A stretch of DNA of 64,000 nucleotides, taken from the NCBI GenBank assembly GCA_938743325.2, contig OW568878.1, forward strand, positions 248,001-312,000. Direction: 5' to 3'. A program made the position numbers and the translations under genes. The notes below the pieces were generated by a model. That model was not told where the DNA came from. It was given only the letters and a program-made list of their open reading frames with translations, and did no database searches. The stretch comes from Pycnococcus provasolii (Eukaryota > Chlorophyta > Pseudoscourfieldiophyceae > Pseudoscourfieldiales > Pycnococcaceae). This document shows positions 2,369 through 52,292 of this stretch, piece after piece. Within the stretch, counting starts at the first letter, position 1. Every line of letters begins with the position of its first letter.

Positions 2369-2460
2369 TGCAGAAATAACAAAGGGAGAAGGGAAGCTAT
2401 TTTTCTCGTCCCCGTCCGGGCAGCCGGGGGCCGTACCCGTACGGTTTTGTCGAGAGTCGT

Positions 2461-2550
2461 CGAAATTGATTTTCCGGAATTAGGGGTCGTCGAAATTGAT
2501 TTTCCGGAATTAGGGGTCGTCGAAATTGATTTTCCAGAATCCGAATTAGG
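2461..2550. repeat. Three tandem 30-bp repeats in a divergent promoter
   Basis: The unit begins cgaaattgattttccggaat and ends taggggtcgt. Copies at 2461 and 2491 are identical; the third, at 2521, is altered in its second half. They sit between the divergent starts at 2328 (-) and 2682 (+), so they may be shared upstream elements. A coding role is unlikely, because the translated repeat precedes the obvious signal peptide of the minus-strand gene. Confidence 0.85.
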
Positions 2551-2681
2551 GGTTGGGTGATGCAATCCGATGCCGATGCGGGAGATTCGGTTCGAACAAC
2601 CACAACCGTTGTTTCAACAAGAACTGATCAATCTGACCTTCTTTCAAACCCTGCGACCACTCCCTCCTTCTGTTTCTGAAG

Positions 2682-3380
2682 ATGACGACGACGATGCTCG
2701 CATGCATGCTCACGCTCCTCCTAGTCCTAGCTACCGCGGCGACCACTCCTCATCATGAGTGCCACGCGCAGGCTTTGCACCGTCCCTGTGATAATGATCA
2801 CGCGAATGCCGTGGACGGGGAAGTGAAAGCGGCGACGGCAGAACTCAACCCTGGATCGGAGTCGACGATGAACATGACGACGAATACGACGAATGATGCG
2901 ACGCCGACCCCTGCAAAGGCGTTCGCGGTATCGACGAAGGCGATGTTCTCCTCCTCCGCCGCCGCCAACACCAACGATGGCCCGATCAGGCAGGCGCTCA
3001 AGTCAGCTTCGGAGCAGATTCAAGGTCTCGCGCAGCCAGGACAGCTTCAGACTGCCGTGCAATCGGTAACCGAGGGACTGAGGTCAGCTTCGGAACAGGT
3101 TCAAGGTCTCGCGCAGTCTGAGCAGCTTCAGACTGCCGTGCAATCGGTAACCGAGGGACTGAAGTCCGCTTCGGAGCAGGTTCAAGGTCTCCTGCAGTCT
3201 GAGCAGCTTCAAACTGCCGCACAATCGGCGATCAAGCAAATCTCTGAAAGTGTCACCACTCTCACGCAGTCGCTTCAGCAACGAGGAGGAGGAGGATCGG
3301 GTGATGGCTTCTTAGCGAAGAAGGTGGAGATGAAGAAGAACATGCTCGCTCGTGCTGGCCTCGGTGGTCAACAGCCTTAG
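2682..3380 (+). CDS. Secreted protein with three 27-residue amphipathic repeats
   Basis: This is a 232-residue protein. The first 23 or so residues (MTTTMLACMLTLLLVLATAA) form a signal peptide. Residues about 105-185 hold three tandem 27-residue units of the form LKSASEQVQGLAQSEQLQ followed by TAVQSVTEG; the underlying DNA repeats with an 81-bp period. The units have the spacing and composition of long amphipathic helices, as in LEA proteins or apolipoprotein-like coiled coils, but no family is recognised. A Gly run and a basic tail (LAKKVEMKKNMLARAG) follow. Several Asn-X-Thr sites lie between the signal and the repeats. It is divergent from the secreted Cys-rich gene at 1291-2328 and may be co-regulated with it through the intervening repeats. 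Confidence 0.75.
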   Translation: MTTTMLACMLTLLLVLATAATTPHHECHAQALHRPCDNDHANAVDGEVKAATAELNPGSESTMNMTTNTTNDATPTPAKAFAVSTKAMFSSSAAANTNDGPIRQALKSASEQIQGLAQPGQLQTAVQSVTEGLRSASEQVQGLAQSEQLQTAVQSVTEGLKSASEQVQGLLQSEQLQTAAQSAIKQISESVTTLTQSLQQRGGGGSGDGFLAKKVEMKKNMLARAGLGGQQP

Positions 3381-3889
3381 AAGAGGATCTTCTTCGCACG
3401 GTGAGTGAGAAAAAATGATATCCGCATGCGCGTGTGCATTTGAGTTTTGATAAACGGTGGATGTTGCGACAAACAAGCCGACGGTGAACAGTCGAGGCGA
3501 GAGGAGGAGAGATGCGCACACTCGCCGCAGGATGTTTTAAGGTTTAGTTAGTTACTACTACAAGTTAGTAAGTAAGAGGAGTCAACTTCTGTTTGTTTCC
3601 CAAATTTCTTATTTGGCTTATGCCGCCACACACAGGTGTGCTACCTAGCTAGTGCGAGCTACTCTACTCCTCCTCCTCTAACGAGACAAGCCCTCCTCGC
3701 CTGCGCTTATTTATTATTCATCGCCGCATCAAGGAAAAATCACCGAGATAGATCTCGTCTCGGGGTTAGTTTTAAAAAAGTTTAAAGATGCTCCCCCGGC
3801 CGTTGTTAGTTGAGGAGGAACCCCCGAGTGAAATGTGTGTGAAACTTCAGCGTGCAGACAGACGCGTCAGCACTTGACAGCTTGGTTGC
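3381..3889. other. Intergenic, no gene seen
   Basis: AT-rich stretches with poly-purine tracts and no protein-like reading. It probably contains the 3' end of the secreted repeat protein gene and the promoter of the PTGES2-like gene. Confidence 0.6.
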
Positions 3890-6015
3890 ATGAACCTGTA
3901 CCAGTACGTCGCAAGCACGTTTCGTTCAAACGCTATTGTGAAGACGTCGACGATGGACAGCAGCAGCAATGACAACAACGACAACATCTCGCCGTCGGCG
4001 GCGGCGGATATATTCACGCCCAACCGAGTATATGTGGGAAACTGTAAGTTTAGATTTTCTGATATCAAGGGTGATACCCCGGATTTTTCCTTGATATCAA
4101 GGTGCCGCAACCTTGATAATCGCCTGTTTGCCTTGATAATTCCGATTAGGGGTTTCAAAAAAAATATTCAATCGCCGATATCATGGTTAAATCAAGGTAC
4201 GCACTACGATATCAAGGCGCCGTAGCGCTGATATCAAGGATATCAACGCAACTATCAGCGCTGCTCCCTCCCCGACCTATCTTCCCGACCAAACCTGTGC
4301 TGCCAAACTCTGAACTTATCCTCCATACTAAAGGGTCCCTTTATTATTTACCCTGATATCTGACCTCTTGGTCCTGATATCAGGCCTACCATGCATGATA
4401 TCAAGGCGACTTGTCTCCACAGCTTCTCCCCTCCCTCAGGATCCTGATATCTGACCTCTGGGTCCTGATATCAGGCCTACCATGCATGATATCATAGCAG
4501 CCCCTTCATCCTTCGTTCATGAACTTTGACTGAAAGTTACATGCACATATTATTTAGGGGAAAATCACCTGAAAAACCCCTCTCCACCACCACCGCCGCT
4601 TCCAAACAGCCAATTCTTGCCGCCTCCCACACGCTGCTTCCAAACAGCCGCCGATTCTTGCCTCCAATCAAGGATCATGACCTCGATATCAAGGATCAAA
4701 ACCTTGATATCAAGGATCATGACCTTGATATCAAGGATCATGACCTTGATATCAAGGTTTTGATCCTTGATATCAAGTCCAATTCTATGATATCAACGCG
4801 TAAAACCCATGTGTCAAACTGTGTCCCCTTGGTACAATGCGACTCTTGGGGGGGAGGGGGGAGCTCTGAGACCTCTTCGCAACCCTCCCTTGATTTCCCT
4901 TCCCGGCTATCAAGGTAGGGGAGCTCTGAGACCTCTTCGCAACCCTCCCTTGATTTCCCTTCCCGGCTATCAAGGTTGGGAAGAGCTCTGAGACCTCTTC
5001 GCAACCCTCCCTTGATTTCCTATGGGCGGGGGACCAATGTCGGTCTGAGTTTGGTCGAGGTTCTCCTCATTGAGCCTTTTTTTGCCTTTTTTGGGGGGGT
5101 TGCCTCTGTTTACAACGGAGGGTTTCCAAAGGGACATTATCAAGGTTAGCATTATCAAGGCAAGGTTGCGCCCCCCACTGGAACCTCTAAAGTTGCAGTT
5201 TCCCACATATAATGCCCAACCAGGAAGGCGAGGAGGCGCAGGCGCTTCCCGCTTCGTGGCGCGGAAAGCCGTCGGCACTCGAGCCCGTGACGCTGTACTC
5301 GTGGCGTGTCTCACCACCCGCGGCGAAGGTGCGCACGCTCCTGCGCCTATTCAACATCAACTTTCAGCAAATTGATGGACGCATGCCTGGATCGAAGTAC
5401 CGCAAGGTGCCCGTTCTTCTCGTAGGTCCAGGCAAATTCCAGATCAACGACAGCTTTGCGATCGCAAAGGCACTATGCCCAGTGCTCACAGGACGAGAGA
5501 TGCCAGCCACGGAATGCGAGCTCGAGAAGGCGATCACCTACAAGCTGATGGTGGCACTCGAACTTCAGGTGTTTCAATCTCGGGAAGATTTCCTGAGATT
5601 CTCAGCGCAATTCTCGAAAACAGCCACCAAGGATGGCTTCTTCGCAAAGGCGAAGCGGTGCATGCTCACCACGATGCATGCTTGCGTGCTACAGCGCCTC
5701 GCACCTAACATGATCGCAAAGCGGTACCCTGATGCGAAGGGTGGGAAGGAATCTGCTAGCGACGTGCTCTCGCTACTCAAGAAGTTTCGAGATGCGGCGC
5801 CTGATCGCAAGCAATTCCTCTCCGGAGGAAACCAGCCTGGAGTGCTTGACGCGAGTTTGTTTGGTGCAGTCGCCGTCTTTGTCGAGTGCGACATTCCCTT
5901 CGTCAAGGAGATGCTGACTGAATCAGGCTTCTATCCGACGTGGTACGAGTCCATCAAGACCCGCCTGGATGGCGACGTCTTTGGAGACAACCTGTCGTCG
6001 TCTGTCAGCAAATGA
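3890..6015 (+). CDS. PTGES2/GST-like thioredoxin-fold protein, split by an introner-like element
   Basis: Proposed exons are 3890-4027 and 5224-6015 (309 residues). Exon 2 reads VTLYSWRVSPPAAKVRTLL, KYRKVPVLL and INDSFAIAKALCP, the thioredoxin-fold pattern of membrane-associated prostaglandin E synthase 2 with the conserved VP turn, followed by a GST-C-like helical domain ending in FGDNLSSSVSK. The usual CxxC is replaced by SPPA, so classic redox chemistry is doubtful. The start at 3890 gives a leader rich in Ser/Thr/Arg/Lys without acids (MNLYQYVASTFRSNAIVKTS), possibly organellar; the ATG at 3953 is the alternative. Between the exons lies an inverted-repeat element. A GT at 4028 and AG at 5223 give a phase-0 intron, joining TPNR to EGEEAQ. 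If unspliced, translation could only start at the ATG of 5212, at the element's right edge. Confidence 0.75.
4353..4494. repeat. Direct repeat of about 52 bp inside the element
   Basis: A segment starting cctgatatctgacctc at 4353 recurs at 4444 with one clear mismatch (ttgg versus tggg) and ends catgcatgatatca in both copies. Each copy contains two palindromes centred on gatatc. Confidence 0.8.
4672..4780. repeat. Tandem array of palindromic ccttgatatcaagg units
   Basis: Units of about 24 bp (tcaaggatcatgaccttgata) repeat four to five times, some with the variant gatcaaaacc. Each includes the perfect 14-bp palindrome ccttgatatcaagg. The array can fold as alternative hairpins. The same palindrome is scattered through the rest of the element and was not seen elsewhere in the window. 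Confidence 0.85.
4857..5022. repeat. Three direct repeats of about 61 bp
   Basis: The unit begins gagctctgagacctcttcgc and runs through aaccctcccttgatttccc. Copies start near 4860, 4920 and 4984; the last is cut short. They lie in the right half of the introner-like element. Confidence 0.85.
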
Positions 6016-21200: not shown

Positions 21201-24200
21201 CCTCAGCAAGGCCGAGGATGTCGCACAAGAAGCCTCTCGGACAAATCACAGGATATTCTCTGGCAAAGCCGGGGCAAATGGTGCCAAGGGGGCACAGCTT
21301 ACAGCTGCTCTTTCCGTATTCCTGATTGTACGAACCTGGGGGACACAAGCGAGGCTCCGTGTTTGCGACGCCGGGACAGTAGGCTCGAGGGGGGCACGCA
21401 ATCATGCGACCTGGAGGACAATACATGCCGGAGGGGCACGGACCCGATCCTTGCGGCGTTTGGCTACCCGGCTCACAGACGTAGCCAGCATAGCATGGCT
21501 GAGGTGTCGTGTAGTTGCCTATGATCGATTTATCCGTTGTCGCACCTGGACCGCAGTAGTACCCAAATGGACACGGAAGTGGCCTTTCTGGCACCTCAAA
21601 GTCGGTAAAGTTGGCGGTCCACGTCCCCTCAAGGCAGTAGTGACCAGCCACGCACGGCTTGATCAAGATGCGCAGACCCGTCTCATCGCAAATCCATCCC
21701 GGCGGGCACACCGTAGCTGTCACTAGGCCAAAATCGGGTGCATAGTGGCCTGCGGGCGAAGGCAAGCATCCCGAGCTCCCTTCATGCGGCTGGATAGTGC
21801 CAGGTGGACAAAGTGTAAAGTTGGTGTTGCCCTGGCCCGGACAGAACGATCCGCGAGGACTCTTGATCGGTTCTCCGCTCGAGGCTGGACAGTAGCTTCC
21901 GCTCGGACAGACGGTGTACGTGAAGAGCATGCGATCGGCAGTGTAATCAGCCCCATTGGTACTCAATTCAATGAAGACCGGCCCAGCCCTTGCCGCTCTC
22001 GGTGCAACACATAGTACGCTTGCAGAGCTCAGGAACGTCGCCTCGCTTTCGGTGGCACCAAATCGACATTTCAACATACTTGAGTTGACGAAGTTGTACC
22101 CGACGATGAAAACGGGCGTTCCACCGGTCATGACGCCCACATTGGGCACCACGGCCCGAATCGTTGCCGGCTGCCTAGGCTCGAACGTCAGCATCGGCAG
22201 TGAGCTCACGAAGCTTCGTCCACGATCCATCGATACGGACAGAAGGCCGTCGCCGCCAGGGTAGCTTGCAGGGCTTAAACACTTGAGTAAGTGAGGCGAC
22301 TCCACACGTGCGTGCACGGGCTGAATGGGGCCAAACCTGCACGCCATCGCGGAGTGTGTCGCACCTTGCAGTAGACTCGACGCTCGAAGCACAATTTGAC
22401 TGGACATGGAGTCGCTGAGAAAGTTGTCGCCAAATACAGAAACGATCGAACCGCCCGCCTCCGGCCCCGCAAGCGGCTGCGCGCCGCTGATACGCATCGG
22501 CGGTGCTCTATGCAAGGTGACACCGACGCCGTCGCCACCAGCACCCACACGAGCAACATGCACGCTTTCATCTTTCCAGCCCACATTTACGAATTCCCAC
22601 GTTTGCATTCCCGCCGGTGCAGGACAGCGCAGTACCGTAGAACTGAGAAGATCGCCTCTCGAGGCTTCCGCAGAAAATACGCAAACATCACCGAGTAGAT
22701 GCTCTCCGAACAACAGAATTGGCTCCGGCGAATTCGCATCGACAATCGTGGGCATAATCACTCGTGCGATGGAAGGCTCGAAGAATTCAAGGGTAATGGG
22801 ATCAGAGCCCACTCGCTTGGTTGAGATCGGCACTGAGGGGCTATCGGGCATGGTCACCTGCAAGGAAACCTCGGAAAATCCAGCGCGTCCATCCACGGGG
22901 GCGGTGCACACGGCAGCGCTGGCAGACATTGCGAACGCTGCAGTCACATGTGATCCAATCAGGCACGCCATATCAGAGCTAAGCCGTGCACCGTGAACCT
23001 CAAAGCTCACCGCCTCCATGCGAATCACCGACGCGTGCGGTATGATGGCACGCAATTCTGGATCCGATGCAAACATGTAGGAGGCAAGCGGTGTAGTGCC
23101 ACCAAACGCAAATTGAGTTGAGATTTGGCTTAACGATGCGCCAGCCGGAACACGCATATCCACCGCGTGCGCGGGGGTAACGCATTCAATGTGCCCGGAT
23201 GCTATGTGACGCCCAATCAGCGGTCCAATGGTGCCGATGTGGCACGAAAGATCTGATAGCGCTTCGGTATCGACGGTGGCGTACACACTGACGGTTGCAC
23301 CTCCCATGCCGCTGCCAGCACTCGGATGTATTCCGGTGGAATCCATCGGACGCACGAACTCCAGTCCTAATCCTGAAGCCGTGTTTCGCACAGGCTCTTC
23401 GCCGATCGAAACGATTGCAAGATTTACTTCGCCCATGCCCTCAGGATTATTGCGACTTTCGCAACTTATGAGCGCTGAGGAAATCTGCCTTGCGCTCGAA
23501 AATTGGCCAACTTCATCACAAAGGATCTCCTCACCAATGAGGTGATCTCCTTCAGTAAAAACAATGGTACCACCATCAGATAGTGCAACACTTGGTCGAA
23601 TGAGATATTGCTGCATAGGCAACGCTCCTTCAATCGTAAAGATATCCTTCGATCGCAATCGACCGGGATCTTTACCGAAGGCATTTATCGTCACAGACGC
23701 GAAACCTTGGCTCGTTATATCCGAGAGAGAGCACAGCATTATGTCACCACCTCCAGAGCCAACAGATTGTGCAACGATCCCACCAAGTTTGCAAAGAGGC
23801 GAAAACAGTGGATTCAGGGATGACATTCCTCCCACATGAACAACAGCGTAGCCATCTGCACCAACGTAAGATCGTGATGGAGAAATATCTTCAACAGACG
23901 CCCGTAATAAACTGATGAAGGTAAACATAGCCTCCGACGACGTGAAGTCGCGCGCGTTCACCGTCAGCTCCACGGGCACGGCGCCCTCGACGTGAGCCGG
24001 ACTCACGCAGCTCGCCTCGCCCTCGAGCACAAGCGTCGCCTCTACCGGCCCGAGCGTGCCGAAACGACAGCCCAGCTGCTCCGTAGACTGCAGACCCAGA
24101 GAGTACACGCGCACCTCCGCGCCGCCCTCGTCGGTTCCGGACGGCGTCGACACGCCGTCCACGCCGCTCAAGTGCATAAACTCGAAGCTGCCGACGTGCG

Positions 24201-27200
24201 AGCTCAGCTGCATGCCCAACGGATCCGCGCTCATCGACACTGACGCGACGCCCTCGTCGTGCGCCGGCGTCTCGCATGCCATCAGTGACGTTGACACCAG
24301 CGTCGCGCTCGTCGGGCCTGCAAGACCGATCACGCAGTACGTCTCAGCCGCGAGCTCGCGACCGGACACGTGCACGACCGACCCGCCAGACGATGCGCCC
24401 ACCTTCGGAGTCACCATATCCACGCGCGGATCCTCGCGATACTCGTACACGGACTCGTACCGAGCTTTGCCAACGTCCACGGAAGCGAATCCAACGTGTC
24501 GGCCCGGAGGCGCCGCGCATATCACGACGTTAGAGCTCACGTACATACCCGGCGCAGACTCGCCGCCGAAACGACAGCGCAGGTCCGCCCGAGGTACGAA
24601 GCCCGCGCCCACAAGCGTCACAGATGCGCCGCCCTGCGACGAGCCGAACGAAGGGGTAAGCGCAGACACGTAGCTACGTGCCGCCTTCTCGTACGTGTAC
24701 AAAGCCTCCGACGACGTGAAGTCGCGCGCGTTCACCGTCAGCTCCACGGGCACGGCGCCCTCGATGTGAGCCGGACTCACGCAGCTCGCCTCGCCCTCGA
24801 GCACAAGCGTCGCCTCCACCGGCCCGAGCGTGCCGAATCGACAGCCCAGCTGCTCCGTAGACTGCAGACCCAGAGAGTACACGCGCACCTCCGCGCCGCC
24901 CTCGTCGGTTCCGGACGGCGTCGACACGCCGTCCACGCCGCTCAAGTGCATAAACTCGAAGCTGCCGACGTGCGAGCTCAGCTGCATGCCCACCGGATCC
25001 GCGCTCATCGATACTGACGCGACGCCCTCGTCGTGCGCCGGCGTCTCGCATGCCATCAGTGACGTTGACACCAGCGTCGCGCTCGTCGGGCCTGCAAGAC
25101 CGATCACGCAGTACGTCTCAGCCGCGAGCTCGCGACCGGACACGTGCACGACCGACCCGCCAGACGATGCGCCCACCTTCGGAGTCACCATATCCACGCG
25201 CGGATCCTCGCGATACTCGTACACGGACTCGTACCGAGCTTTGCCAACGTCCACGGAAGCGAATCCAACGTGTCGGCCCGGAGGCGCCGCGCATATCACG
25301 ACGTTAGAGCTCACGTACATACCCGGTGCAGACTCGCCGCCGAAACGACAGCGCAGGTCCGCCCGAGGTACGAAGCCCGCGCCCACAAGCGTCACAGATG
25401 CGCCGCCCTGCGACGAGCCGAACGAAGGGGTAAGCGCAGACACGTAGCTACGTGCCGCCTTCTCGTACGTGTACAAAGCCTCCGACGACGTGAAGTCGCG
25501 CGCGTTCACCGTCAGCTCCACGGGCACGGCGCCCTCGATGTGAGCCGGACTCACGCAGCTCGCCTCGCCCTCGAGCACAAGCGTCGCCTCCACCGGCCCG
25601 AGCGTGCCGAAACGACAGCCCAGCTGCTCCGTAGACTGCAGACCCAGAGAGTACACGCGCACCTCCGCGCCGCCCTCGTCGGTTCCGGACGGCGTCGACA
25701 CGCCGTCCACGCCGCTCAAGTGCATAAACTCGAAGCTGCCGACGTGCGAGCTCAGCTGCATGCCCACCGGATCCGCGCTCATCGATACTGACGCGACGCC
25801 CTCGTCGTGCGCCGGCGTCTCGCATGCCATCAGTGACGTTGACACCAGCGTCGCGCTCGTCGGGCCTGCAAGACCGATCACGCAGTACGTCTCAGCCGCG
25901 AGCTCGCGACCGGACACGTGCACGACCGACCCGCCAGACGATGCGCCCACCTTCGGAGTCACCATATCCACGCGCGGATCCTCGCGGTACGCGTACAGCG
26001 ATTCCGCCGATGCGCTCGCACCGTCCAGTGTCACGCTCGTGAAGTGCGCGCCGCCCATCGAGCCTGGCACGTAGCAAGATACCATGTCAGAGCTCACGTA
26101 CATACCCGGCGCAGACTCGCCGCCGAAACGACAGCGCAGGTCCGCCCGAGGTACGAAGCCCGCGCCCACAAGCGTCACAGATGCGCCGCCCTGCGACGAG
26201 CCGAACGAAGGGGTAAGCGCAGACACGTAGCTACGTGCCGCCTTCTCGTACGTGTACAAAGCCTCCGACGACGTGAAGTCGCGCGCGTTCACCGTCAGCT
26301 CCACGGGCACGGCGCCCTCGATGTGAGCCGGACTCACGCAGCTCGCCTCGCCCTCGAGCACATGCGTCGCCTCCACCGGCCCGAGCGTGCCGAAACGACA
26401 GCCCAGCTGCTCCGTAGACTGCAGACCCAGAGAGTACACGCGCACCTCCGCGCCGCCCTCGTCGGTTCCGGACGGCGTCGACACGCCGTCCACGCCGCTC
26501 AAGTGCATAAACTCGAAGCTGCCGACGTGCGAGCTCAGCTGCATGCCCACCGGATCCGCGCTCATCGATACTGACGCGACGCCCTCGTCGTGCGCCGGCG
26601 TCTCGCATGCCATCAGTGACGTTGACACCAGCGTCGCGCTCGTCGGGCCTGCAAGACCGATCACGCAGTACGTCTCAGCCGCGAGCTCGCGACCGGACAC
26701 GTGCACGACCGACCCGCCAGACGATGCGCCCACCTTCGGAGTCACCATATCCACGCGCGGATCCTCGCGGTACGAGTACAGCGATTCCGCCGATGCGCTC
26801 GCACCGTCCAGTGTCACGCTCGTGAAGTGCGCGCCGCCCATCGAGCCTGGCACGTAGCAAGATACCATGTCAGAGCTCACGTACATACCCGGCGCAGACT
26901 CGCCGCCGAAACGACAGCGCAGGTCCGCCCGAGGTACGAAGCCCGCGCCCACAAGCGTCACAGATGCGCCGCCCTGCGACGAGCCGAACGAAGGGGTAAG
27001 CGCAGACACGTAGCTACGTGCCGCCTTCTCGTACGTGTACAAAGCCTCCGACGACGTGAAGTCGCGCGCGTTCACCGTCAGCTCCACGGGCACGGCGCCC
27101 TCGATGTGAGCCGGACTCACGCAGCTCGCCTCGCCTTCGAGCACAAGCGTCGCCTCCACCGGCCCGAGCGTACCGAATCGACAGCCCAGCTGCTCCGTAG

Positions 27201-30200
27201 ACTGCAGACCCAGAGAGTACACGCGCACCTCCGCGCCGCCCTCGTCGGTTCCGGACGGCGTCGACACGCCGTCCACGCCGCTCAAGTACATAAACTCGAA
27301 GCTGCCGACGTGCGAGCTCAGCTGCATGCCCACCGGATCCGCGCTCATCGATACTGACGCGACGCCCTCGTCGTGCGCCGGCGTCTCGCATGCCATCAGT
27401 GACGTTGACACCAGCGTCGCGCTCGTCGGGCCTGCAAGACCGATCACGCAGTACGTCTCAGCCGCGAGCTCGCGACCGGACACGTGCACGACCGACCCGC
27501 CAGACGATGCGCCCACCTTCGGAGTCACCATATCCACGCGCGGATCCTCGCGGTACGAGTACAGCGATTCCGCCGATGCGCTCGCACCGTCCAGTGTCAC
27601 GCTCGTGAAGTGCGCGCCGCCCATCGAGCCTGGCACGTAGCAAGATACCATGTCAGAGCTCACGTACATACCCGGCGCAGACTCGCCGCCGAAACGACAG
27701 CGCAGGTCCGCCCGAGGTACGAAGCCCGCGCCCACAAGCGTCACAGATGCGCCGCCCTGCGACGAGCCGAACGAAGGGGTAAGCGCAGACACGTAGCTAC
27801 GTGCCGCCTTCTCGTACGTGTACAAAGCCTCCGACGACGTGAAGTCGCGCGCGTTCACCGTCAGCTCCACGGGCACGGCGCCCTCGATGTGAGCCGGACT
27901 CACGCAGCTCGCCTCGCCCTCGAGCACAAGCGTCGCCTCCACCGGCCCGAGCGTGCCGAAACGACAGCCCAGCTGCTCCGTAGACTGCAGACCCAGAGAG
28001 TACACGCGCACCTCCGCGCCGCCCTCGTCGGTTCCGGACGGCGTCGACACGCCGTCCACGCCGCTCAAGTGCATAAACTCGAAGCTGCCGACGTGCGAGC
28101 TCAGCTGCATGCCCACCGGATCCGCGCTCATCGATACTGACGCGACGCCCTCGTCGTGCGCCGGCGTCTCGCATGCCATCAGTGACGTTGACACCAGCGT
28201 CGCGCTCGTCGGGCCTGCAAGACCGATCACGCAGTACGTCTCAGCCGCGAGCTCGCGACCGGACACGTGCACGACCGACCCGCCAGACGATGCGCCCACC
28301 TTCGGAGTCACCATATCCACGCGCGGATCCTCGCGGTACGCGTACAGCGATTCCGCCGATGCGCTCGCACCGTCCAGTGTCACGCTCGTGAAGTGCGCGC
28401 CGCCCATCGAGCCTGGCACGTAGCAAGATACCATGTCAGAGCTCACGTACATACCCGGCGCAGACTCGCCGCCGAAACGACAGCGCAGGTCCGCCCGAGG
28501 TACGAAGCCCGCGCCCACAAGCGTCACAGATGCGCCGCCCTGCGACGAGCCGAACGAAGGGGTAAGCGCAGACACGTAGCTACGTGCCGCCTTCTCGTAC
28601 GTGTACAAAGCCTCCGACGACGTGAAGTCGCGCGCGTTCACCGTCAGCTCCACGGGCACGGCGCCCTCGATGTGAGCCGGACTCACGCAGCTCGCCTCGC
28701 CTTCGAGCACAAGCGTCGCCTCCACCGGCCCGAGCGTGCCGAAACGACAGCCCAGCTGCTCCGTAGACTGCAGACCCAGAGAGTACACGCGCACCTCCGC
28801 GCCGCCCTCGTCGGTTCCGGACGGCGTCGACACGCCGTCCACGCCGCTCAAGTGCATAAACTCGAAGCTGCCGACGTGCGAGCTCAGCTGCATGCCCACC
28901 GGATCCGCGCTCATCGACACTGACGCGACGCCCTCGTCGTGCGCCGGCGTCTCGCATGCCATCAGTGACGTTGACACCAGCGTCGCGCTCGTCGGGCCTG
29001 CAAGACCGATCACGCAGTACGTCTCAGCCGCGAGCTCGCGACCGGACACGTGCACGACCGACCCGCCAGACGATGCGCCCACCTTCGGAGTCACCATATC
29101 CACGCGCGGATCCTCGCGATACTCGTACACGGACTCGTACCGAGCTTTGCCAACGTCCACGGAAGCGAATCCAACGTGTCGGCCCGGAGGCGCCGCGCAT
29201 ATCACGACGTTAGAGCTCACGTACATACCCGGCGCAGACTCGCCGCCGAAACGACAGCGCAGGTCCGCCCGAGGTACGAAGCCCGCGCCCACAAGCGTCA
29301 CAGATGCGCCGCCCTGCGACGAGCCGAACGAAGGGGTAAGCGCAGACACGTAGCTACGTGCCGCCTTCTCGTACGTGTACAAAGCCTCCGACGACGTGAA
29401 GTCGCGCGCGTTCACCGTCAGCTCCACGGGCACGGCGCCCTCGATGTGAGCCGGACTCACGCAGCTCGCCTCGCCCTCGAGCACAAGCGTCGCCTCCACC
29501 GGCCCGAGCGTGCCGAATCGACAGCCCAGCTGCTCCGTAGACTGCAGACCCAGAGAGTACACGCGCACCTCCGCGCCGCCCTCGTCGGTTCCGGACGGCG
29601 TCGACACGCCGTCCACGCCGCTCAAGTGCATAAACTCGAAGCTGCCGACGTGCGCGCTCAGCTGCATGCCCAACGGATCCGCGCTCATCGACACTGACGC
29701 GACGCCCTCGTCGTGCGCCGGCGTCTCGCATGCCATCAGTGACGTTGACACCAGCGTCGCGCTCGTCGGGCCTGCAAGACCGATCACGCAGTACGTCTCA
29801 GCCGCGAGCTCGCGACCGGACACGTGCACGACCGACCCGCCAGACGATGCGCCCACCTTCGGAGTCACCATATCCACGCGAGGATCCTCGCGATACTCGT
29901 ACACGGACTCGTACCGAGCTTTGCCAACGTCCACGGAAGCGAATCCAACGTGTCGGCCCGGAGGCGCCGCGCATATCACGACGTTAGAGCTCACGTACAT
30001 ACCCGGCGCAGACTCGCCGCCGAAACGACAGCGCAGGTCCGCCCGAGGTACGAAGCCCGCGCCCACAAGCGTCACAGATGCGCCGCCCTGCGACGAGCCG
30101 AACGAAGGGGTAAGCGCAGACACGTAGCTACGTGCCGCCTTCTCGTACGTGTACAAAGCCTCCGACGACGTGAAGTCGCGCGCGTTCACCGTCAGCTCCA

Positions 30201-33200
30201 CGGGCACGGCGCCCTCGATGTGAGCCGGACTCACGCAGCTCGCCTCGCCTTCGAGCACAAGCGTCGCCTCCACCGGCCCGAGCGTGCCGAATCGACAGCC
30301 CAGCTGCTCCGTAGACTGCAGACCCAGAGAGTACACGCGCACCTCCGCGCCGCCCTCGTCGATACCTTGAGTATCTCCATCATGGAAATTTTGAACGGCA
30401 TAGACTTCCGGGTCAATGAAGATGGAGAAGTCAAGACTCGATGTACTGAAATCAGTACCATTTGAATCAGTGGCGACCTCAATGTTGACGACGCCTTCAC
30501 CATACTCGGGAAGTTCAAATCGAAGATGCACGCTTGATACGAATGTGCTATCTAAGATTGCAGCATAACCGACGCTGACGAATCTACCTTCGCTATTCGG
30601 TGTCTGCGGCAGCTGAACCATGTCTTTGCCTAAAATGTCAACAATCGTCCCTCCTGCTTCGGTACCATGCGACGGCACGACCTGCAAAATGGTGGCTGGT
30701 TCCACAAATAGAAACATTTTCTCTTCGTTCAGTCTTCGGTCATCGTAGACGTCTGTGAGGCGAATTGAAGCAAACCCAGCTGAGTGAGATGGCGATCCCA
30801 TGCATGCGACACGCGTTCCCTCAAGATTAATTCTTGCCTCCACAAAGCCATTGCCTCCAAAATGGCAGACCATGTCTTCCTGCATTTCAATCGCTAAACC
30901 TTCGAGTAGAACTAGTGTCCCTCCGGTTGTTGGACCATCAAACTTATGCATCGATTGTACGATAGAGCGCACGATGTACTTAAATGTTGCACCCATCCAG
31001 CTGTGCTGGAGAACATTCAAACCAGTCGTAAGAGGAACGTATGACTCGTAATGACTTGGAGCGGCGCACAGAATCTCAGATGGACTCAGCCAAGCTCCAG
31101 CGATCGGTCGCAGTGTTCCAAAACCGCACTCGAACGTAGACTCTTCCACGAATCCTTCTCCAGTAATCGTGACCGTTTGACCACCATCCTGCATACCGCG
31201 ATATGGATAAATGCCAGTTGGCTCGACATCAGGAATGTATGTAATCGTGTTCAAATTGATCGTCCAGTCCTCGTTGTTATTTGATACCTCAACAACGTGA
31301 TCCCCCGCATTGCTCGCTGGCGTCTCGCAGAGCAGCAAAACACTCGATATGAATAAAGTTGGCGAAGTAGGATAGGTTCCGACGCGGCAAGCGCTTTGTC
31401 CAACACCGCCGAGATCGATATAATTAGTGAGATCTACGAAATTTTCGCCGACGATGGGTAAAATGGACCCTCCCAATTCTCTCTCATACGGCATTACCAG
31501 ATTCTTCACAAAAGCTCGTGCAAGGTACAGGTACTGGCTGCCTGCACTTGACGTGAGCAATCCGTTGATAATCTCAAACGTCGTAAAACCTGCTTGCATG
31601 GCCGGTGCGTGACAAATCATCTGGAAATTGCTTAACCAAGTGGCGGCCGCCTGCGTTACGCCAAAGCGACAGCTAAGACTTGAACGGTCGAAACCAGTGC
31701 CACGAATGTAAATCCTCGTACCGCCAGGAGTATGTCCTGCCAGGAGATTTACGGAAAGGATGCGCGGAGTCGCAGTCGTTGCGAAGCCGGCAACCTGCGC
31801 AGGTGTCAAAGCATCATCGCCTTCCGTCGACACAATTTTAAGGTCGGCATTGAAGTATGTTCGCGTATTGGTTGCTCCTGGCACGTCGAGACACGCCTCG
31901 CGAGAAAGGGGATGCAATCCAATGGTGAGCTCGTATAGTTTAGCGACCGCGTCATCGAACGGGGCAATAGCTGGAGATTTTATGACCTGCTGTGTGCGAC
32001 CTGTAACAGTCACATCGAAGACGTATATTGGACCGAACGCGACGTAGGCCTGTGGAGTGTCCGTGAAGTTGTCGCCCGATAGAGTGACGGTCGTTCCACC
32101 AGCCGAATTTATCGTTTTTGGGTCGATCGAGGTCCACTTCGGCGCAGCATAGTACGTCGTCATTCCGATGCGCTTTACCGATGCGTCATTTGATGTGCGA
32201 AAACCCATTTCCACCTCATCTTGATAGAGAGCAAATATGATGTTTTGGTGCGGGACAAATGCATGCAGCAGCGCAGTACTCACGAAGTGTACGTCGGTTG
32301 CGTGGACAATGCCATTCGCCGTCAGAACATCAATATCTTGTGTGAAGTGCGCACCAGTCACATACATCGGCGTGTGACCACAGCTCGCAAATTCTTTCGG
32401 CATGTAGTCGATAACGTCATACCCTGTTCGATATTCGAAAATGGCATCGTCATCTCGCACGCGCACGCCTCCAACATCAATTTCATTAAGACCAAATGCC
32501 GGTTCGTCCGTGCAGGGTGGCGCGCAAATCTGCACGTGCTGAAATCCCGGTCTCTGCTCTGGGTACCGACAGACAGCGAGGTTATCAGACAGAGCGATTC
32601 CAAGACTCGATGCCTCGCCAAAACGACAAACGATTGAACCGCCATTGCGAGGATCGTCGGACATTGTCGCTGCCGCGAATCCCACGCCTGAAACAGTTAC
32701 CATTGAGGAGCCGTCCGTGTGGCCGTGCAGCGGGAAAATGGTTGTCGACGTTGGTGATCTGAGGTAAGAGAATGTCGCATGATCCGCTGAGCTGTCGCGA
32801 CCCGCGTTCACACCCAGGCGGAATTGCGTACGCCCGTCTGCGTGTGCAGGGCTCACGCAGTTCGCGTGATCACCTGATGTGCGCGCGGAGACGATGATCG
32901 TTCCAAATCCACATGTCAGCCGCGTGCTTGAGGCGACGAGGCTTAGATCGTGCCCATATGCGACAACGTCAGCACCACCAGAGAAGTGGCCCGTTGACGG
33001 CTCCACCCCAGCAGTGGTGGCAAGCAGCACGGCATCAAGAATTGGAGCGCGACCAGTGCCGGCCGAACTTGCACCACCACCTGCCAAGTGGTGAGGATCG
33101 AGCTCCACGTCGAGCGCACCAGCTTCCAGCTCCACTGGGGGTGCGACGCAACGTACAAGCGCGCTGGATACATGGTGCATACTCGATGGTGGAAACATTC

Positions 33201-38492: not shown

Positions 38493-41400
38493 CTATGATT
38501 TCTTCATCATCATCAGCGGGTCACCCACGACGTCTTCGGACGTGGGACTTCCAGCGAATGACTCTTGATGCTTCGCACCAAGCGCTATCGTCGATAAATC
38601 AACCACGGCACCCAAGGCTTGCATCATGTCCAGCGTAATGCTAGCCATGCCGCGCGTCGTGTCGTACCCTCTCTTAAGGCTCAGCTGCACCAGCGGCAAG
38701 CCACGGTACAAGTCGAACTCCGAGCCACCACGGACTCCAATGTCGCCAAGAATACGCCTCGCCACAACTTTGCAGGCATTCATCTGCGCATTCTTAATCT
38801 CCTCATCGTTCATACCATTCAGCATGCTCTGAACCTCGTCTTTTTTCAGGTGACGATCTTGTCCAAAGCTCCGATAACGAGTCAACTTGTGATGATGATC
38901 GCTGCCAAATACATGCTCGTACTCCGATTGGGGCACGAAATTGAAGAGCGAGTAATCCAGCTTCGGAAGAGCACGCGCCTGTTTCATCCGCGCCAACGCA
39001 TCCACGCGACCGGATTTGGCTCGTTTAAATGGGGTTGAGGTTGAGGCATCGGACAATTTCATACTTGCGATACTTGCGAGATCGCTCTTCGGGGCCTTCA
39101 AAGAATTCGATGGCGCCGCGGTGAATCCTGCTGCCCATCCTGCGCGTGTTTGCATCGTTCGGATATCCTTCAAACACCTCATGTGTAGATCGTGGATCAT
39201 CTCTCCCGTAGCTATTACACCGACAGTGCCAACAATGGGAAGATTGATTGATCGGTAATGCGCGTGGTTCATACGAAGCCATCGAGCTCCTTGAGCCTGC
39301 AATTGTTCGTCACTCATTTCTTCAAGCTTATGCTCCCGGGAGAGGTCGAGCGTCGCGGCAGTCTTGCGATCAATTACACCGTCAGAAAGATCCTCCGCGC
39401 GGTTCGCCGCATTCACGAGTCGTGCCAGCGCTCGCTGAAGCTCCACAATTTCGTGCCTCGCATCTTGACGTTCCTGTGCCGAGGCGGATCCCTTCGTGAG
39501 TACGTTGCGCTTCATACGAATTGCATGGTGTATCCCTGACCAGATTTGCTTCCTTTTTTGCTCCATCGCGTTCTTCGCATTCGTGTGCTCCACAGCCGAG
39601 TGAACTCCCCGCGTTTCGCGATCCATCAAAGTCTTTGAAGCCATGAGGCCAGTCAGGACATTTTCCTCAAAAAATCGGCTTTCAAATGCTGTCGATTTAC
39701 GCGGCACCTTGCCACCATGACTTGCCTTATCGCCAGGCGGCCAGACGGAAAATGTTCTCTCCACTGCCTGCGTTTTCGTGATGTACGCTTGCATGCGAAG
39801 ACAGCGCTTCAAAAAATTCGAACCTTTATCCTTAAGCAGAGCAACTCCAATCCACTTCAAGTCAAGTGCCTTGAGGATGCTAATCACGATCTGCAAATAT
39901 GGGCCATATTGTGATGTTGGCGAGGCTGTCACCTTCCTAAATAGCAGTTCGCCATCACTCAGGTTAGCTTCTCGGAACTCAGAAGACTTCCGTTTTTGTT
40001 CCTGCTCCTGCACGTAATAATCGACGATAATTGCCATGAAGAATTGAATAAGAATGTACCACATGTAGAATGGGTAGGCGGCATAAAATAGGCCAACCAC
40101 TACATCCGTGATCGCATCATTCAACACACCAGCAGGCATAATCGCCTCACGAATAAAATTACCCTCATCGGCAAGAGCATACTCGAAGAGCTCAGTCTGA
40201 GCTTTATTGAAAGTATTGAGATGCTCGATATGATCGCCCAGAATCATGAGAGCTATAAATGCAAATCCCCATGTCAAGAATGCTATAACCACGGTGAGCA
40301 CCGCTAAATCAGGAATTGCACGCTGCATGGCACGCGTGAATGGATAAAAGGCGCTAGTTCTGCTGAGCAGACCCATTAGGTTACCGACGATGAGCAGTAG
40401 AATGGGCAATTGCAAGAACGTGTGGGACTGCCAGATCTGAACCATGCTGTCGATACGATCGAGTATGTGTAAGTACTCGCTGCGCTCTTGCCCATCAATC
40501 GGCAACGACATGCGCCACGCTCCGATAGGCATGCCAGGCGACACGTCCTGCGAAGCCGCGAGTCGCTTCGGCAAAAGCCAGCGTGCGTCCGCGCTGCCGA
40601 CATTATCGTAAAACTAGAGAGTGCATGTGTGCGTGTGTGTGTGTGATGTTAGTGCTTGTGTTAGCGCCGTGAAAATTGTTGTGCCTGGACACAAACAAAC
40701 AAAGCAAAGTAAAACAAAGCAAAATTCTCTCCACAAAGAAAGAAAAACGAAACGTACCTGGTACACATCCTTGTATCCAAACGTTTTTGAGTAGTTGAGA
40801 GAGTAGTACCATTTTAAGACAATAGAAGATCCGATCAGCATGGGGATGGCTAGATTGTCGAGATCTGACACGACATCCCACGAACTGTAAAGCAAGAATG
40901 AAGACCTTACGACAGCAAAGCGATTTTGCCGCTTCGTATTTTCGGCGTGAGCACGTCTTGCACGCTTTGCAAGTATGAGTAGCTCGTTCAATGTCAAAAA
41001 CGTGGTGATGCCCACGAATAGTACTTCGAAAATTAGGCATATCATGCCACGTCTGCTCGTGAAATAATTATAGTCGGCAGGAAGCATGGTTGTGGTTGGC
41101 GTGGCAAAATATTCGCCTGACGGGCCGCGTTCGTATGTGATCGTCACATCCATGATTGTGTCAAGCTTATGATTATGCATGGGAATACGAACGATCATAG
41201 CTTCCGTGCGATTGTCAAGAAATTGGCCATAGGCCATGGAACCGAGAATTTTTCGTGCCCTTGTCGACGAAATGCTGCCAGTGATGAATACCTCAAATGT
41301 TGAGTCCGCGCCAGAACGAGTATCACCATAACTGTACGATGCGTTGTAGTATGCATAGGGTGCGCCCGTTTTGTTGCGGATCTCACCACGCGACGCATTA

Positions 41401-41882
41401 TAAAATGCATCCATGTGTGGCGCTAAGTTGGGATTGTACAGCAGGCTGTCCAAAAGATCTGTGTGTAATTCAGAACGCTGAATATGTGTAATCGATGCAT
41501 CAAATCCATAAGGCGCGCCTCGGCTGACAGATGCGCATCCACCAGCCGAGAAGAGGGGAGCGAACCGCTTCTTAAATCGGCGATCGGCGGGACATCCGAT
41601 AGGGCGTTCTCGACGGATTGTTTTGATATATAAGCCACCAATCACTCGCATATCGTCAAGGGCGCCCAACGCACGTGGCTTGCTATATTTGATCCAGTCA
41701 GTTGAAGCCAATTTCTCAATGAAAGACTGCTGCTTTTGGTCAGTCGACAGGTAGCCAGCTCGATCCGCAATTCCAGTCTTACCGGGCGCCGCAAGTAATT
41801 TAGCTCTGGACGTGGTAGAGGTCGAAGTTCGGAGAAGCTTACGCGAAGCTGCATTGGCAGTGTTATTTTCCACCGCAGCCAA

Positions 41883-41927
<45 letters not shown>

Positions 41928-44900
41928 TATCGACTGCGATGGCAATTCACCTTTCCCTGTGAGGACAGTGTACTCTGCAAAATAGGCGTCATCATCGAAA
42001 CCTGAGCGATTGCAAGTCGGAAGCTCGGTAGATGCGTAGCTATTCTTAATGGTGGAAGCTTGTGAAGCGACAGTATTTCGATATGTGTACAAGCTCTCAA
42101 CTATGGCAGTCATCTGAGATAGTGAGCTGAATTGAGTGCTCTTCAGTCGTGACGAAAGTTGTTCTGCCATTTCATTCTGCTTGGTGATTTCATCTGCAAG
42201 TTTTGTGGTCAGTGCCAAAAGTTCCGCCGCAAGCTTCATTGTAATGCTTTGTCCGTCAGCAGCCAGTCTAGTGATGCCAACAGTGTCCGATTGAAAGCTA
42301 GAATCACCGTAACCTCGTGTCGAGTCGACATCACGTGCCAATACTCGCATAACGTCGGTGGCCTCGCCAGTGCTTCCCTCAAGCGATGACGCAGATACAA
42401 TTGCAGATTCGACTTTCCTGGAGACATACTCAGGTCCAGATGCTTTTGGCGATACCACAGGTGCCGCTGTCTGAACGATAGCAGCCCGGCGAACTGCACT
42501 CATGCGCCGACGATGCTTCATCGCCTTCGGCTTCGTCGCCAACGATGCCTGCTGAACCACGGTTGCGGAAAAAGCAGCACTATTTGCACCGGTCGATTCG
42601 CATGATGTCAGATGTACGGCTCCCATCGTCACACTGTATTCGGCAGCCACGATGGATCGTGCACGCACACAAATGTCCGACTTGGGATCCGCCAAGGCTT
42701 TTGAGCAGTCTTCTACGTCGTCGAGTGATACACTCAATTCTAGTTGAGCGCCCTCAACAATGCTCACAATGAGACGTGTCGATGCCTCGCCACTTTTCGA
42801 GGGGCGAGGAGGCTTAACCAGGCTAGTCGCTGATGCGCTGAACACGTATATGCCTGCGTCACAGTTGCCCGCATTGAAATTCAACGCAGAGCACTTTGCC
42901 TCATTGGAACTTTTGAACTCTACAGATAGTATGCCATCGGCATCACTTCGAGCCGAGGCACCGCACAATGGCCACGTAAGGCCTTCGTATGCACCAGCAC
43001 AATCCTGCGTGGGTCCTGCGAGGTGTGGTGCATTGTACGGGACTGGGCGCTTTCCATACAGGAAAACAAATGGACCTTCCGATGAAAGTGGAGCACGAAG
43101 ATCAACTCTTGGCGTGTAGTCAGAAGTCGGCTCCGACGTTGCGAGGGTGGCAAGTTCCGCCAAAGATTCGCAGCTTTTCACCACCTGGCATCCGCCCTCC
43201 GGGTTATTCTCGGGACACCACGTCTCGCCTTCTGCACACGGCTCGACGATTGTGATTGTGCGCGTTACCTTTGCTATCAGCCCTTCACTGTCAAAGGCTG
43301 TGAATGTGATTGGAAAGACAGTATCGACCGTCGCGGATATATTGATGCAGTGAGCAATGCCAACCTGCTTCACTCGGTACTGCTTGCATCCGGTGGACAT
43401 ACAGCTCTCGGGTGCACACGCCACAACTTTATCGAGAAGATTGTTCTCCTCATCTTGCACCGTGACTCCAGGTTCGCAAATTGTCTGGCTTCCCTCCTTG
43501 CACATGGTGTACGGCGTGAAGCGGGGAAGTTTGGGCGCAACGTTGACAATACGCGTGATATTAAGCGTGATTGTTGGCGGAGCATTTACCGCCTTTGGCA
43601 CGTCGTCTGTGACCTCTCTGAGGTCATCCTCACATGGAACCCCTTGGGGCGTGCACGATGTTCCTTCAGAGCAAGGAACGTAGCCGTCCGGGCATTCGAT
43701 GAGCTTTTTCACCCGACGCGTGGCCGAGGCTGTCAGTCCCGCACCATCCGTCACGGAAAACACTATATCATGGATTCCAGGTTTTGCGAGCTGCTCTGCG
43801 CATCCGTCTAGGCCATCTGTCTTGAACCTTTTGCCGCATACCACGATTCTGTCTTCAAGGTCATTGCCACGATAGTCCGTAGCTGTGGCGCCGTTATCGC
43901 ACAGAGCATTCACCTCAGCATTTGGTGGGCAGCGATCATACCCTACATTCTCTGGTACGACGCGATAGTCTTGGCCAATAAGCTTGATGGTCGGTGGCTG
44001 TGCCGTCTTCTGGACTTCCCCTGCAATTTGTTGCTGTGTCGATTCGATCCCCTCGATAGTGACGACGCAATCCCCTCGATAGTTGCTGCATTTCCCATTT
44101 GGGCACAGTATGTCGCCATCACCCTCTTTCATAGGACAAGCTTTCAGAACCTTGATCCATCGCTGCACCTCAGGCGCTTCGTTGCCCGCTTCGTCACGAA
44201 GCGTGTATCGAATGACTTGATATTTTCCCTTTCCCTTCTCGGGCGATGGTTTCGAAGTATCGACGGCGTCATCGCCGAACACATTTGGCGCCAGCGTCAG
44301 ACGAGATTTATCTTCCAAAATGTCATACGCCTCCACGCCTTGATCTGTGTACTTTGAACCCTGCATCACTTCCACGATCAGCACCTTAATACCGGATTTC
44401 GTCTTGCCATAGGTTCCGTCTCCGATTAATTGTAAGATGGGCGGCGTTGTGTCAACGGGAGGTGGCGTCGGCGTGCTAACCGTCGCGTCACCATTTCCTG
44501 CACTGTCAAGGCAAAATCCTGATACTGTACAGGTGCCGTCAACGCACGTTGGAAGTTCATTCGGGTCCTCGCAAGGATTTTCAACGGAAACTTCACGTAT
44601 AGCCTCTGCCACGAGTTTTGCGTCATCAACGCAGTGATACGTGATCGTGTAAATACCTGTGCGAGATGTATCCACTTTCTGAACTGCTTCGTTTGCAACG
44701 CCGTAGGTGATCTGCGTATCGCTGATGGCGATCAGCCCGTCACGGTTATCCGTGCAGGTTGCACCTGCGTCGATATACTTTTCTGGATTGAGCAAGCGAA
44801 TTGTGACTAACTTGCTCCCTTTTAGTTGAATGTCAGGTTTTTCCGTATCCACCGGCAAAGGAGCGGCTGTAGTGACTATTTGTACGAGGAAGTCTTCGCC

Positions 44901-46242
44901 GATGCCAGCTGTATCCGCATCCGTTCCCTCCTCTGTTTCGATGCCGTCATCTTGGTCTTCAAGACCGGTAATCGTGATTTCGGGAGGGGGTGGGGAATTT
45001 GGTGGTGGCCTTGGTGGTGAAGGAGGAAGTGGTGGGTTTGGTGGTGAAGGAGGAAGTGGTGGGTTTGGTGGCGGTGGTAAAGGTGGTAAAGGTGGTGGAC
45101 AGGCTGGCCGGTGTCCTGTAAACGCAAATGTGTAATCATTTGTCTCGCCACCACAATTTGCGTCGCAGCATACCCTGAGAGTCACTGTCGTTGGTCCGCA
45201 CGAAGCGTGCCTGATTGTCGTGTAGGATAGCTCCTGCTGAGGCTGCGGTGTAGAGCTTGAGACCTCACATCCAACTCCTTCGCACTCCACGAATACATAC
45301 GATGCGCTTGACTTGGCTATTGCGTACAGCGTGACAGATAGCCAGGTTTCCACATCTACCATGGGCGAGATGATCGGATAGGTAAAAACGGTTGGAGAAA
45401 AGCTGGGGAACTGAATACCAGAACCAATCGATGCGCTAGGTGCTCCCGGGAAAATATAATCTGGCATATTCCTGGCGCCAGCTTCGCATATTTCAGAGCA
45501 CTTAGCTTGACACGAATTTTGAACAGCGTCAATTTTGCTCACGGAAATTGGCGGTTCCGGAGGAGAAGGTGGTCGAGGAGGAAGTGGTGGTAGAAGGGGA
45601 GGAGCATGTGGTGGGAAGGAAGGTGGTTCCGGCGGTTGCGGCGGCAGCGGCGGGCTCAGCTCTTCCACGATCGCAGCCTCCGTCACGACAGGGACCACGG
45701 AATCAAATCCTTCATCGACCAATGCTTGTGAGAGCGAATCGGTAAATGTTTCCCCGCCATTCACAGTTTCGGCGACAAATGACGAGACAAAGCTCGGAGC
45801 TGTAATCTTCACATTCAACGTCACGATGCCATAAACCTGCTGAAGATGGCGTCTTTTGAAAGGCTCCGGGTCAGTACTTCTCCAAACAGTCACACGAATG
45901 TTCTCGCCCGGTGCTGTCTCAGCCATTACTCCTTCTATTGCCGTCTCAAAAGCACGACTCGTCTCGGCATTCCAAGGTCCCAAATTCCCAATTAACTGCA
46001 TTGAAAACCGAATTGCATTTTCCGGCTCGGGAGGCATAGTCGTCGTATCGACGATGTCGGTGTCGGTGTCGGTGCCGGTGTCGGGCATAGTCGTCGTATC
46101 GACGATGTCGGTGTCGGTGCCGGTGTCGGGCATAGTCGTCGTATCGACGATGTCGGTGTCGGTGCCGGTGTCGGGCATAGTCGTCGTATCGACGATGTCG
46201 GTGTCGGTGCCGGTGTCGGGCATAGTCATCGTAGTCGTCGTA

Positions 46243-46293
<51 letters not shown>

Positions 46294-51218: not shown

Positions 51219-52292
51219 GGCGAGCGAGCAGTGCTGATGGCGAGTGCTGATGGCGAGCAAAATGAACAGAACAAAGGGGACAGGGCCCAGGGGACAGGGA
51301 GGGCAAAGGCGGGTGCAACAGACCAACCCCTGGCCCTGGGGAAAAACATAGTACTAAATTCAATCATTCGCAGTGGGGGGCAACCCCTTGGGACAGATAA
51401 ATCCCCCTGGATCCATGGACAGATCAATCGCACGCACCAAAAGCCTTCCCTTCCCTTCCCATCAAATAACTTGCTGAAACCCCCATTAATTATTCCAAGC
51501 AGGCGTCAGCCGAGCATCAGCCGAGGGATGTAGTTCAGAGGCGAGCATAGGATGAAGTTGGTTCGGTCGAGGGTTTGCAAAGGGCGAGAATTACTGTATG
51601 TAAATAACGGTGTGTCATACCAGAACTTGGTCTACCTTTATCGGTGAGGCAACAGGCGTGCCGTGCCGTCCCTGTTCTGGCTCTTGGGATGACTTTTGGA
51701 CTGCGCGTGAGTGATCCCCTGAAAATCAGCCTGAACTTATTAGTTGGTAGAAGACACTGGGAGTGAGTGACACACACGCGCAATTATGTAGCTGCGCGCT
51801 TGCCTCGGGACCCGGCCACCTGCACCTGCTTGCCTCGCTTTCTCTCGTTCCGTCCTGGATCCATCATATGTGGTCATAGGTAGTTCTTACATAATTCTTA
51901 GGGACTCGTCACGGGAGGGAGTGGGATTTGCACGTGGCGTTCAAGCCCGCGTTCGTATCCCCCTTCCTAGCTATCGTATTTCGCTTCTGCCTTCTACCTT
52001 AGGTGTTCGTTCGTGTTCAAGACTCGCTGGCTTTTGACTTCGCTGGTCTTCAGAGGTGGTCTCCACTCTCCAGTTGCCTCCTGTTCGCCTTGGGAACACG
52101 CCTTTTCTTCCCTCCTTATTTAGAAAAACAAAAGGCTGCGAAGATTTTTCCCACTCCCCGGCAACCTGGGAAAAGTTAGGGTTAGGGTAGATTGGTTAGG
52201 GTTAGGGCTAGGGTTAGGCCGAGGGTCGCTTCACACCAAAAACGGAACTTTCGAAACTTGTCCCCTCCTGTCACGCATTGTGTGTGTCACCA
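51219..52292. other. Divergent intergenic region
   Basis: About 1.07 kb between the polycystin start (-) and the four-TM gene start (+). Apart from the TTAGGG-like tract near its right end and a short duplication (gcgtcagccgagcatcagcc), I see no gene or clear motif. Confidence 0.55.
52172..52216. repeat. Interstitial telomere-like (TTAGGG) tract
   Basis: ttagggttagggt, then ggttagggttagggctaggg: five to six TTAGGG-like units in plus orientation, about 80 bp upstream of the start at 52293. Confidence 0.85.

Follow-up and report, generated by a model that had tools for sequence, protein, structure and literature searches.

The origin of new introns is an old question. Giroux et al. in 1994 are said to have shown by RNA that insertions of the maize element Ds, which belongs to hAT, are spliced as introns, and introners bounded by inverted repeats and duplicated target sites were reportedly described by Huff et al. 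in 2016. Introner families comprise from 5 to more than 2,000 copies, with median lengths of 30–654 nt (Gozashti et al. 2022, PMC9860276). Among the KDZ (Kyakuja-Dileera-Zisupton) transposons, the target duplication measures 8 bp in Zisupton and Dileera and 7 bp in Kyakuja (PMC12730594).

Here we analyse a window of 64,000 nucleotides from the marine green alga Pycnococcus provasolii CCAP 190/2, whose genome has been described as 32.2 Mb in 44 chromosomes plus two organelles (PMC11130579); the assembly that we searched holds 32.3 Mb in 46 contigs. A PTGES2-like reading frame in this window (3890–6015), which amounts to 309 codons once the element is removed, is split by a 1,188-bp insertion at 4026–5213. 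The initial annotation had read the insertion as a transposon-born intron of the introner type. We consider it probable, with good confidence, that a non-autonomous KDZ-like deletion derivative was inserted a single time and recently, that it does not belong to an introner family, and that the GT-AG fit is coincidental.

Structure and origin of the inserted element

The element is a real insertion, far beyond chance, and its annotated length, inverted ends and position within the gene were all confirmed. The left inverted repeat (4026–4059, plus strand) holds a GT at 4028 (GTATAT) and the hexamer GTAAGT at 4044, and the right one (5181–5213, minus strand) reads TTGCAG in sense, ending at 5198. 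Terminal repeats of 24 bp with three differences had been annotated; inverted ends are indeed present, and the repeat measures 31 nt at 87% identity (4029–4059 against 5181–5211) with an exact 16-bp core, TATATGTGGGAAACTG. On both sides the element is bordered by the duplicated target sequence GCCCAACC, at 4018–4025 and 5214–5221. Because the base outside ATTATATG is identical in all three right ends of the family (C18, C7 and C4), the element may extend to base 5214, in which case the duplicated sequence would be the 7-bp CCCAACC (right copy at 5215–5221). The duplication itself therefore stands as annotated, whereas its length is either 7 or 8 bp.

Comparison with other copies in the genome shows that the element joins a left end that also occurs on C9 to a right end that also occurs on C7: positions 4026–4755 are 99.6% identical to C9:195075-195805 (chromosome 9), and 4702–5214 are 98.3% identical to C7:641215-641727 (chromosome 7). 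The overlap between these two parts falls in an array of palindromic 21-bp repeats (CCTTGATATCAAGG; 4667–4777), so that the deletion junction is likely to lie there. By this comparison the element is evidently an internally deleted, non-autonomous DNA transposon. The internal deletion would have arisen within the palindrome array, and a transposase made elsewhere would have inserted the shortened, KDZ-like cut-and-paste derivative once, recently, in the N-terminal coding region of the PTGES2-like gene of CCAP 190/2. Allowing one mismatch at most, CCTTGATATCAAGG occurs 26 times genome-wide, and the C7, C9 and C18 copies account for 21 of these occurrences. The palindrome is nearly confined to this transposon family (window 4060–4812; stretches L016, L017 and L018), and the introns of the transposase gene are also filled with it; it is possible that it represents a candidate transposase-binding site.

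Inward of its end, the C7 copy continues into an intron-containing gene that matches CxC5 (PF18718; E 2.1e-5, 25.1 bits against a curated cut-off of 26.9), a cysteine cluster linked to KDZ transposases. The catalytic KDZ domain (PF18758) was not found in the genome, and the control genomes gave no match either; it was likewise not found in the C9 pieces or the C4 relic, and there was no intact copy among the sequences. Protein searches with the transposase pieces, limited by their length and by shared words, returned no relatives outside the genome, and within it diverged relics occur on C1 and C4. With a CxC5 match below cut-off, the catalytic domain not found and no transposase relatives returned by these protein searches, the assignment to KDZ is probable, not proven. 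As for viral relatives, the 16-mer occurs in 21 viral contigs, the remainder of the repeat in none of the contexts listed; a search for a viral relative of the host protein found none.

Further observations concern the surroundings of these copies. The C4 relic (stretch L080, ~2400–4000) is 42% identical to the C9 piece, with another short motif, GCCTGACACA, crowding its spacers. A 102-bp stretch opening the frame MAAPGGADQPELAEQ recurs at 99% identity beside two relics of transposons (L080 1917–2018 on C4; L016 3901–4002 on C9), and is therefore probably part of another repeat. On C7, an open frame of the transposon joins a 401-bp near-copy (99.75%) of part of a neighbouring HtrL/YibB-like gene, giving a chimeric frame of 181 codons (stretch L017, 6617–7162 and 2667–3067). 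Telomere-like GGGTTA repeats lie chromosome-internally near the broken C9 copy (L016, ~3620–3720). The window itself also contains long-period repeats of ~783/774 bp and 798/750 bp (22000–31500 and 45500–50000) and, on the minus strand, a stop-free frame of 3,579 codons (40617–51353).

Membership in an introner family, as initially proposed, is not supported by the genome searches. The left 120 bp of the element matched C18 and C9 only, and the right 120 bp C18 and C7 only. A search with the 16-bp end at two mismatches, which scores the best candidates only and which strongly diverged copies could escape, gave seven places in the genome compared with two for a control; on C4 this is a lone, diverged right end, and the places on C8 and C17 share the core only. 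The inserted element is the one complete copy that these searches recovered, and none of the single broken ends on C9, C7 and C4 was seen to split a gene in the open reading frame lists and the sequence. The annotation had suggested looking for genome copies by their end sequence, and this outcome, together with a length above the published family medians (PMC9860276), speaks against its family claim; the searches with 120-bp and 16-bp ends led us to reject an introner family in this genome. The element does have terminal inverted repeats and a target duplication, traits that are frequent among introners, albeit not universal. Neither KDZ elements nor Pycnococcus occur in the main text of PMC9860276, and a literature search combining introners with Pycnococcus brought up only work on euglenid introns.

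The interrupted gene and its ortholog

The first part of the split frame (3890–4027, plus strand) comprises 46 codons from the ATG at 3890, with an in-frame stop at 3875 upstream of it, and the ortholog P0001 from Pseudoscourfieldia marina begins at the same residue. The second part (5224–6015, plus strand) encodes the GST-like domain and the stop, as indicated by domain and structure matches. The label PTGES2-like holds: the solved PTGES2 structure 1z9h matches ortholog residues 67–137 (E 1.4e-4), and Pfam GST matches to the product of the split gene fall under their cut-offs.

A search of ~5.8 billion proteins at E <= 0.001 returned one cluster, P0001, a predicted protein of 309 aa that, compared at the protein level, is identical to the pre-insertion frame in 306 of 309 residues; the two algae share 100% 18S identity (PMC11130579). 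Across the insertion site P0001 reads TPNQEGD without interruption, as the empty site in a relative was expected to do. At this position the pre-insertion frame predicts Gln, and splicing from 4028 to 5223 predicts Arg. As we tested 4,235 GT/GC-AG pairs in the insertion-bearing allele and none yields the Gln junction of P0001, the P. marina gene most likely does not carry the insertion, and the uninterrupted ortholog with its Gln suggests that the insertion is recent. We therefore regard a young transposon insertion beside an uninterrupted ortholog as secure at the level of these comparisons. The continuity of the ortholog protein also led us not to favour an ancestral intron starting at 3904.

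Reading through the element from the first gene part meets in-frame stops. This is consistent with a null allele, in which the gene is merely disrupted, possibly on just one haplotype; the deposited assembly represents one haplotype (PMC11130579), and since the insertion is young, the undamaged frame beyond it says little about function. The argument for such an allele begins and ends with the insertion itself, and we hold it as a tentative reading, possible enough to be taken seriously.

Splice signals and the chance of a neat fit

The intron proposed initially runs from the donor GTATATG at 4028 to an acceptor, CCAACCAG, which consists of the right target copy plus a host AG and ends at 5223. 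Both sequences are present as described, and removal of 4028–5223 does produce a phase-0 junction and 309 codons, with a single altered codon (CAG to CGA, Gln to Arg). To judge these sites we turned to the genome's own introns. The genome is intron-poor, with 99 of the 130 kinase-domain matches listed covering the domain in a single open frame (start <= 10, end >= 250); among eight partial kinase matches looked at, three are split by introns and five are unsplit. Ab initio intron finding was abandoned as too noisy: three control motif sets produced 38, 33 and 35 candidates, compared with 35 for the real motifs. The introns used here come instead from kinase, Ras and UQ_con domains that are split. 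Thirteen partial- or split-looking stretches were fetched, of which five proved unbroken and eight (L066, L067, L068 and L074–L078) gave nine introns, the one in L078 sitting in a single unbroken frame, so that it could be an insertion.

The donors of these introns are GTACGT in six cases, and GTACGA, GTACGC and GTTCGT in single cases; a C at +4 and a G at +5 are invariant, and all nine introns contain a CTVAC branch motif with its A 26–67 nt before the intron end. The base at +4 is commonly A, and the strict GTACGT-like donor combined with CTVAC in nine domain-supported introns is unusual in this respect. Four introns placed in the C7 transposase agree in part (G at +5 in all four, C at +4 in three). 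A search for U1 RNA, which would have allowed donor pairing to be tested, gave nothing above threshold.

Judged by these signals, use of 4028/5223 is unproven and appears disfavoured. GT and AG are present and the frame is kept, but by the standards of this genome the signals at donor, acceptor and branch point are weak. The donor at 4028 has neither the C at +4 nor the G at +5, and scores -0.1 compared with 9.3–12.7 for the true donors, 12.0 for a GTACGT at 3904 in the first exon and 4.4 for GTAAGT at 4044; 18% of the GTs in the window score at least as well as 4028 and 4.7% at least as well as 4044. The acceptor at 5223 reaches 0.65, that at 5198 reaches 4.4, and true acceptors lie between 6.4 and 15.0, the true scores being optimistic since the same nine introns both trained and tested the matrix. 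Upstream of 5223 no CTVAC occurs within 90 nt. In favour of this acceptor over 5198, it is preceded by a CTAAA at 33 nt, a distance usual for a branch point and inside the range of the nine introns. This motif, like the small size of the intron set behind the matrix, also counts against our preferred account of a coincidental fit.

How often such a fit arises by accident was estimated from 4,000 simulated insertions of the element in the same orientation into 55 open reading frames of at least 900 nt, overlapping frames being left in. A frame-preserving GT-AG pair near the ends was found in 77% of the insertions and an exact-length pair in 11% (74% and 6.3%, respectively, in the opposite orientation). 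These rates make the neat exact-length fit weak evidence for an intron, though not nothing, and we rejected it as strong evidence; conversely, a chance of only ~11% also weighs against coincidence. The specific geometry of 4028/5223 recurred in 5.5% of the insertions, which, together with the restored protein length and the existence of such introns elsewhere (PMC9860276), speaks for the proposed intron. Set against this are the weak signals and the competition of the stronger donors at 3904 and 4044, and we regard splicing at 4028/5223 as quite improbable. The same low probability attaches to the larger picture that it would imply, a nascent intron, absent from a near-identical relative, which a KDZ-type transposon created in a single step in an intron-poor green alga with otherwise strict GTACGT-like donors. 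If that picture were true, the family ends would be asymmetric, donor-like on the left (CTGTAAGT) and acceptor-like on the right (TTGCAG), and the transposon would bring its own splice sites, lowering the cost of insertion into genes.

Other splice sites would produce altered or leaky isoforms, using the host donor at 3904 or the element donor at 4044 with the TTGCAG acceptor ending at 5198. Among donors from 3890 to 4100 and acceptors from 4600 to 5260, 31 GT-AG pairs, 4028/5223 included, leave the frame uninterrupted up to the regular stop; 3904/5198 is the best of them (16.4), whereas 4028/5223 ranks sixth (0.5). Within the family, CTGTAAGT is present in both left ends, and TTGCAG in sense in two of three right ends. 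However, the acceptor at 5198 has no CTVAC nearby and its sole CTAAA is too close (8 nt), and GTACGT is common enough (65 in 194.5 kb of one strand) for the hexamer at 3904 to be due to chance. Paired with each other, 4044 and 5198 leave 41 extra bases followed by a stop, so the family end sites, splice-like as they are, do not rescue the gene; the initial annotation had correctly called this pair out of frame, and 4044 with 5223 meets a stop as well. On balance such isoforms seem unlikely, if less so than the exact-length intron.

The insertion also created an in-frame ATG at 5212–5214 from the element end and the first base of the target copy. Transcripts running through or starting from the element could be translated from it into a 267-aa product that lacks 42 N-terminal residues and retains the entire GST-like domain. 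The A at -3 and the start of the domain match well downstream, at ortholog residue 67, are consistent with such a restart. A promoter in the element is hypothetical, however, upstream ATGs would need to be bypassed, and 11.6% of the simulated insertions likewise placed an in-frame ATG at the right end; we consider the restart a doubtful course, ranking just behind loss of function. If the allele makes protein at all, this ATG or the better-scoring sites (donor 3904 or 4044, acceptor 5198) are likelier than 4028/5223, and a null allele is about as likely as those routes. We give restart, splicing through other sites and loss of function more weight, each by itself, than splicing at 4028/5223; the exact-length GT-AG pair most likely reflects the chance position of the insertion.

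Comparison with known systems

With an alga that can be cultured and an ortholog that is uninterrupted, this young insertion offers a system for asking whether such an element is spliced at once or breaks the gene. The simulations supply a baseline for this question, since roughly three in four insertions of this element at random possess a frame-preserving pair and about one in nine an exact-length pair, so that such a GT-AG pair by itself argues only weakly for an intron.

Like maize Ds, the element is a non-autonomous deletion derivative within a gene, and splicing via sites near its ends, said to have been shown by RNA for the hAT element Ds, is here only possible; the evidence at this locus is sequence, and the end sites used as a pair lose the frame. 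It differs from introners in having one complete copy of 1,188 bp and unproven proposed splicing, and resembles them in its DNA-transposon ends and short target duplication and, if spliced, in combining a splice site of the element with one supplied by the duplication (Gozashti et al. 2022, PMC9860276). With regard to KDZ transposons, the CxC5 match lies just below its cut-off, the catalytic profile was not found in the genome and the copy in the window carries no gene. The family copy on C7 is the one with this CxC5-type match, and the locus shares with KDZ transposons the inverted ends and a duplication of 7 or 8 bp that fits the published lengths (PMC12730594).
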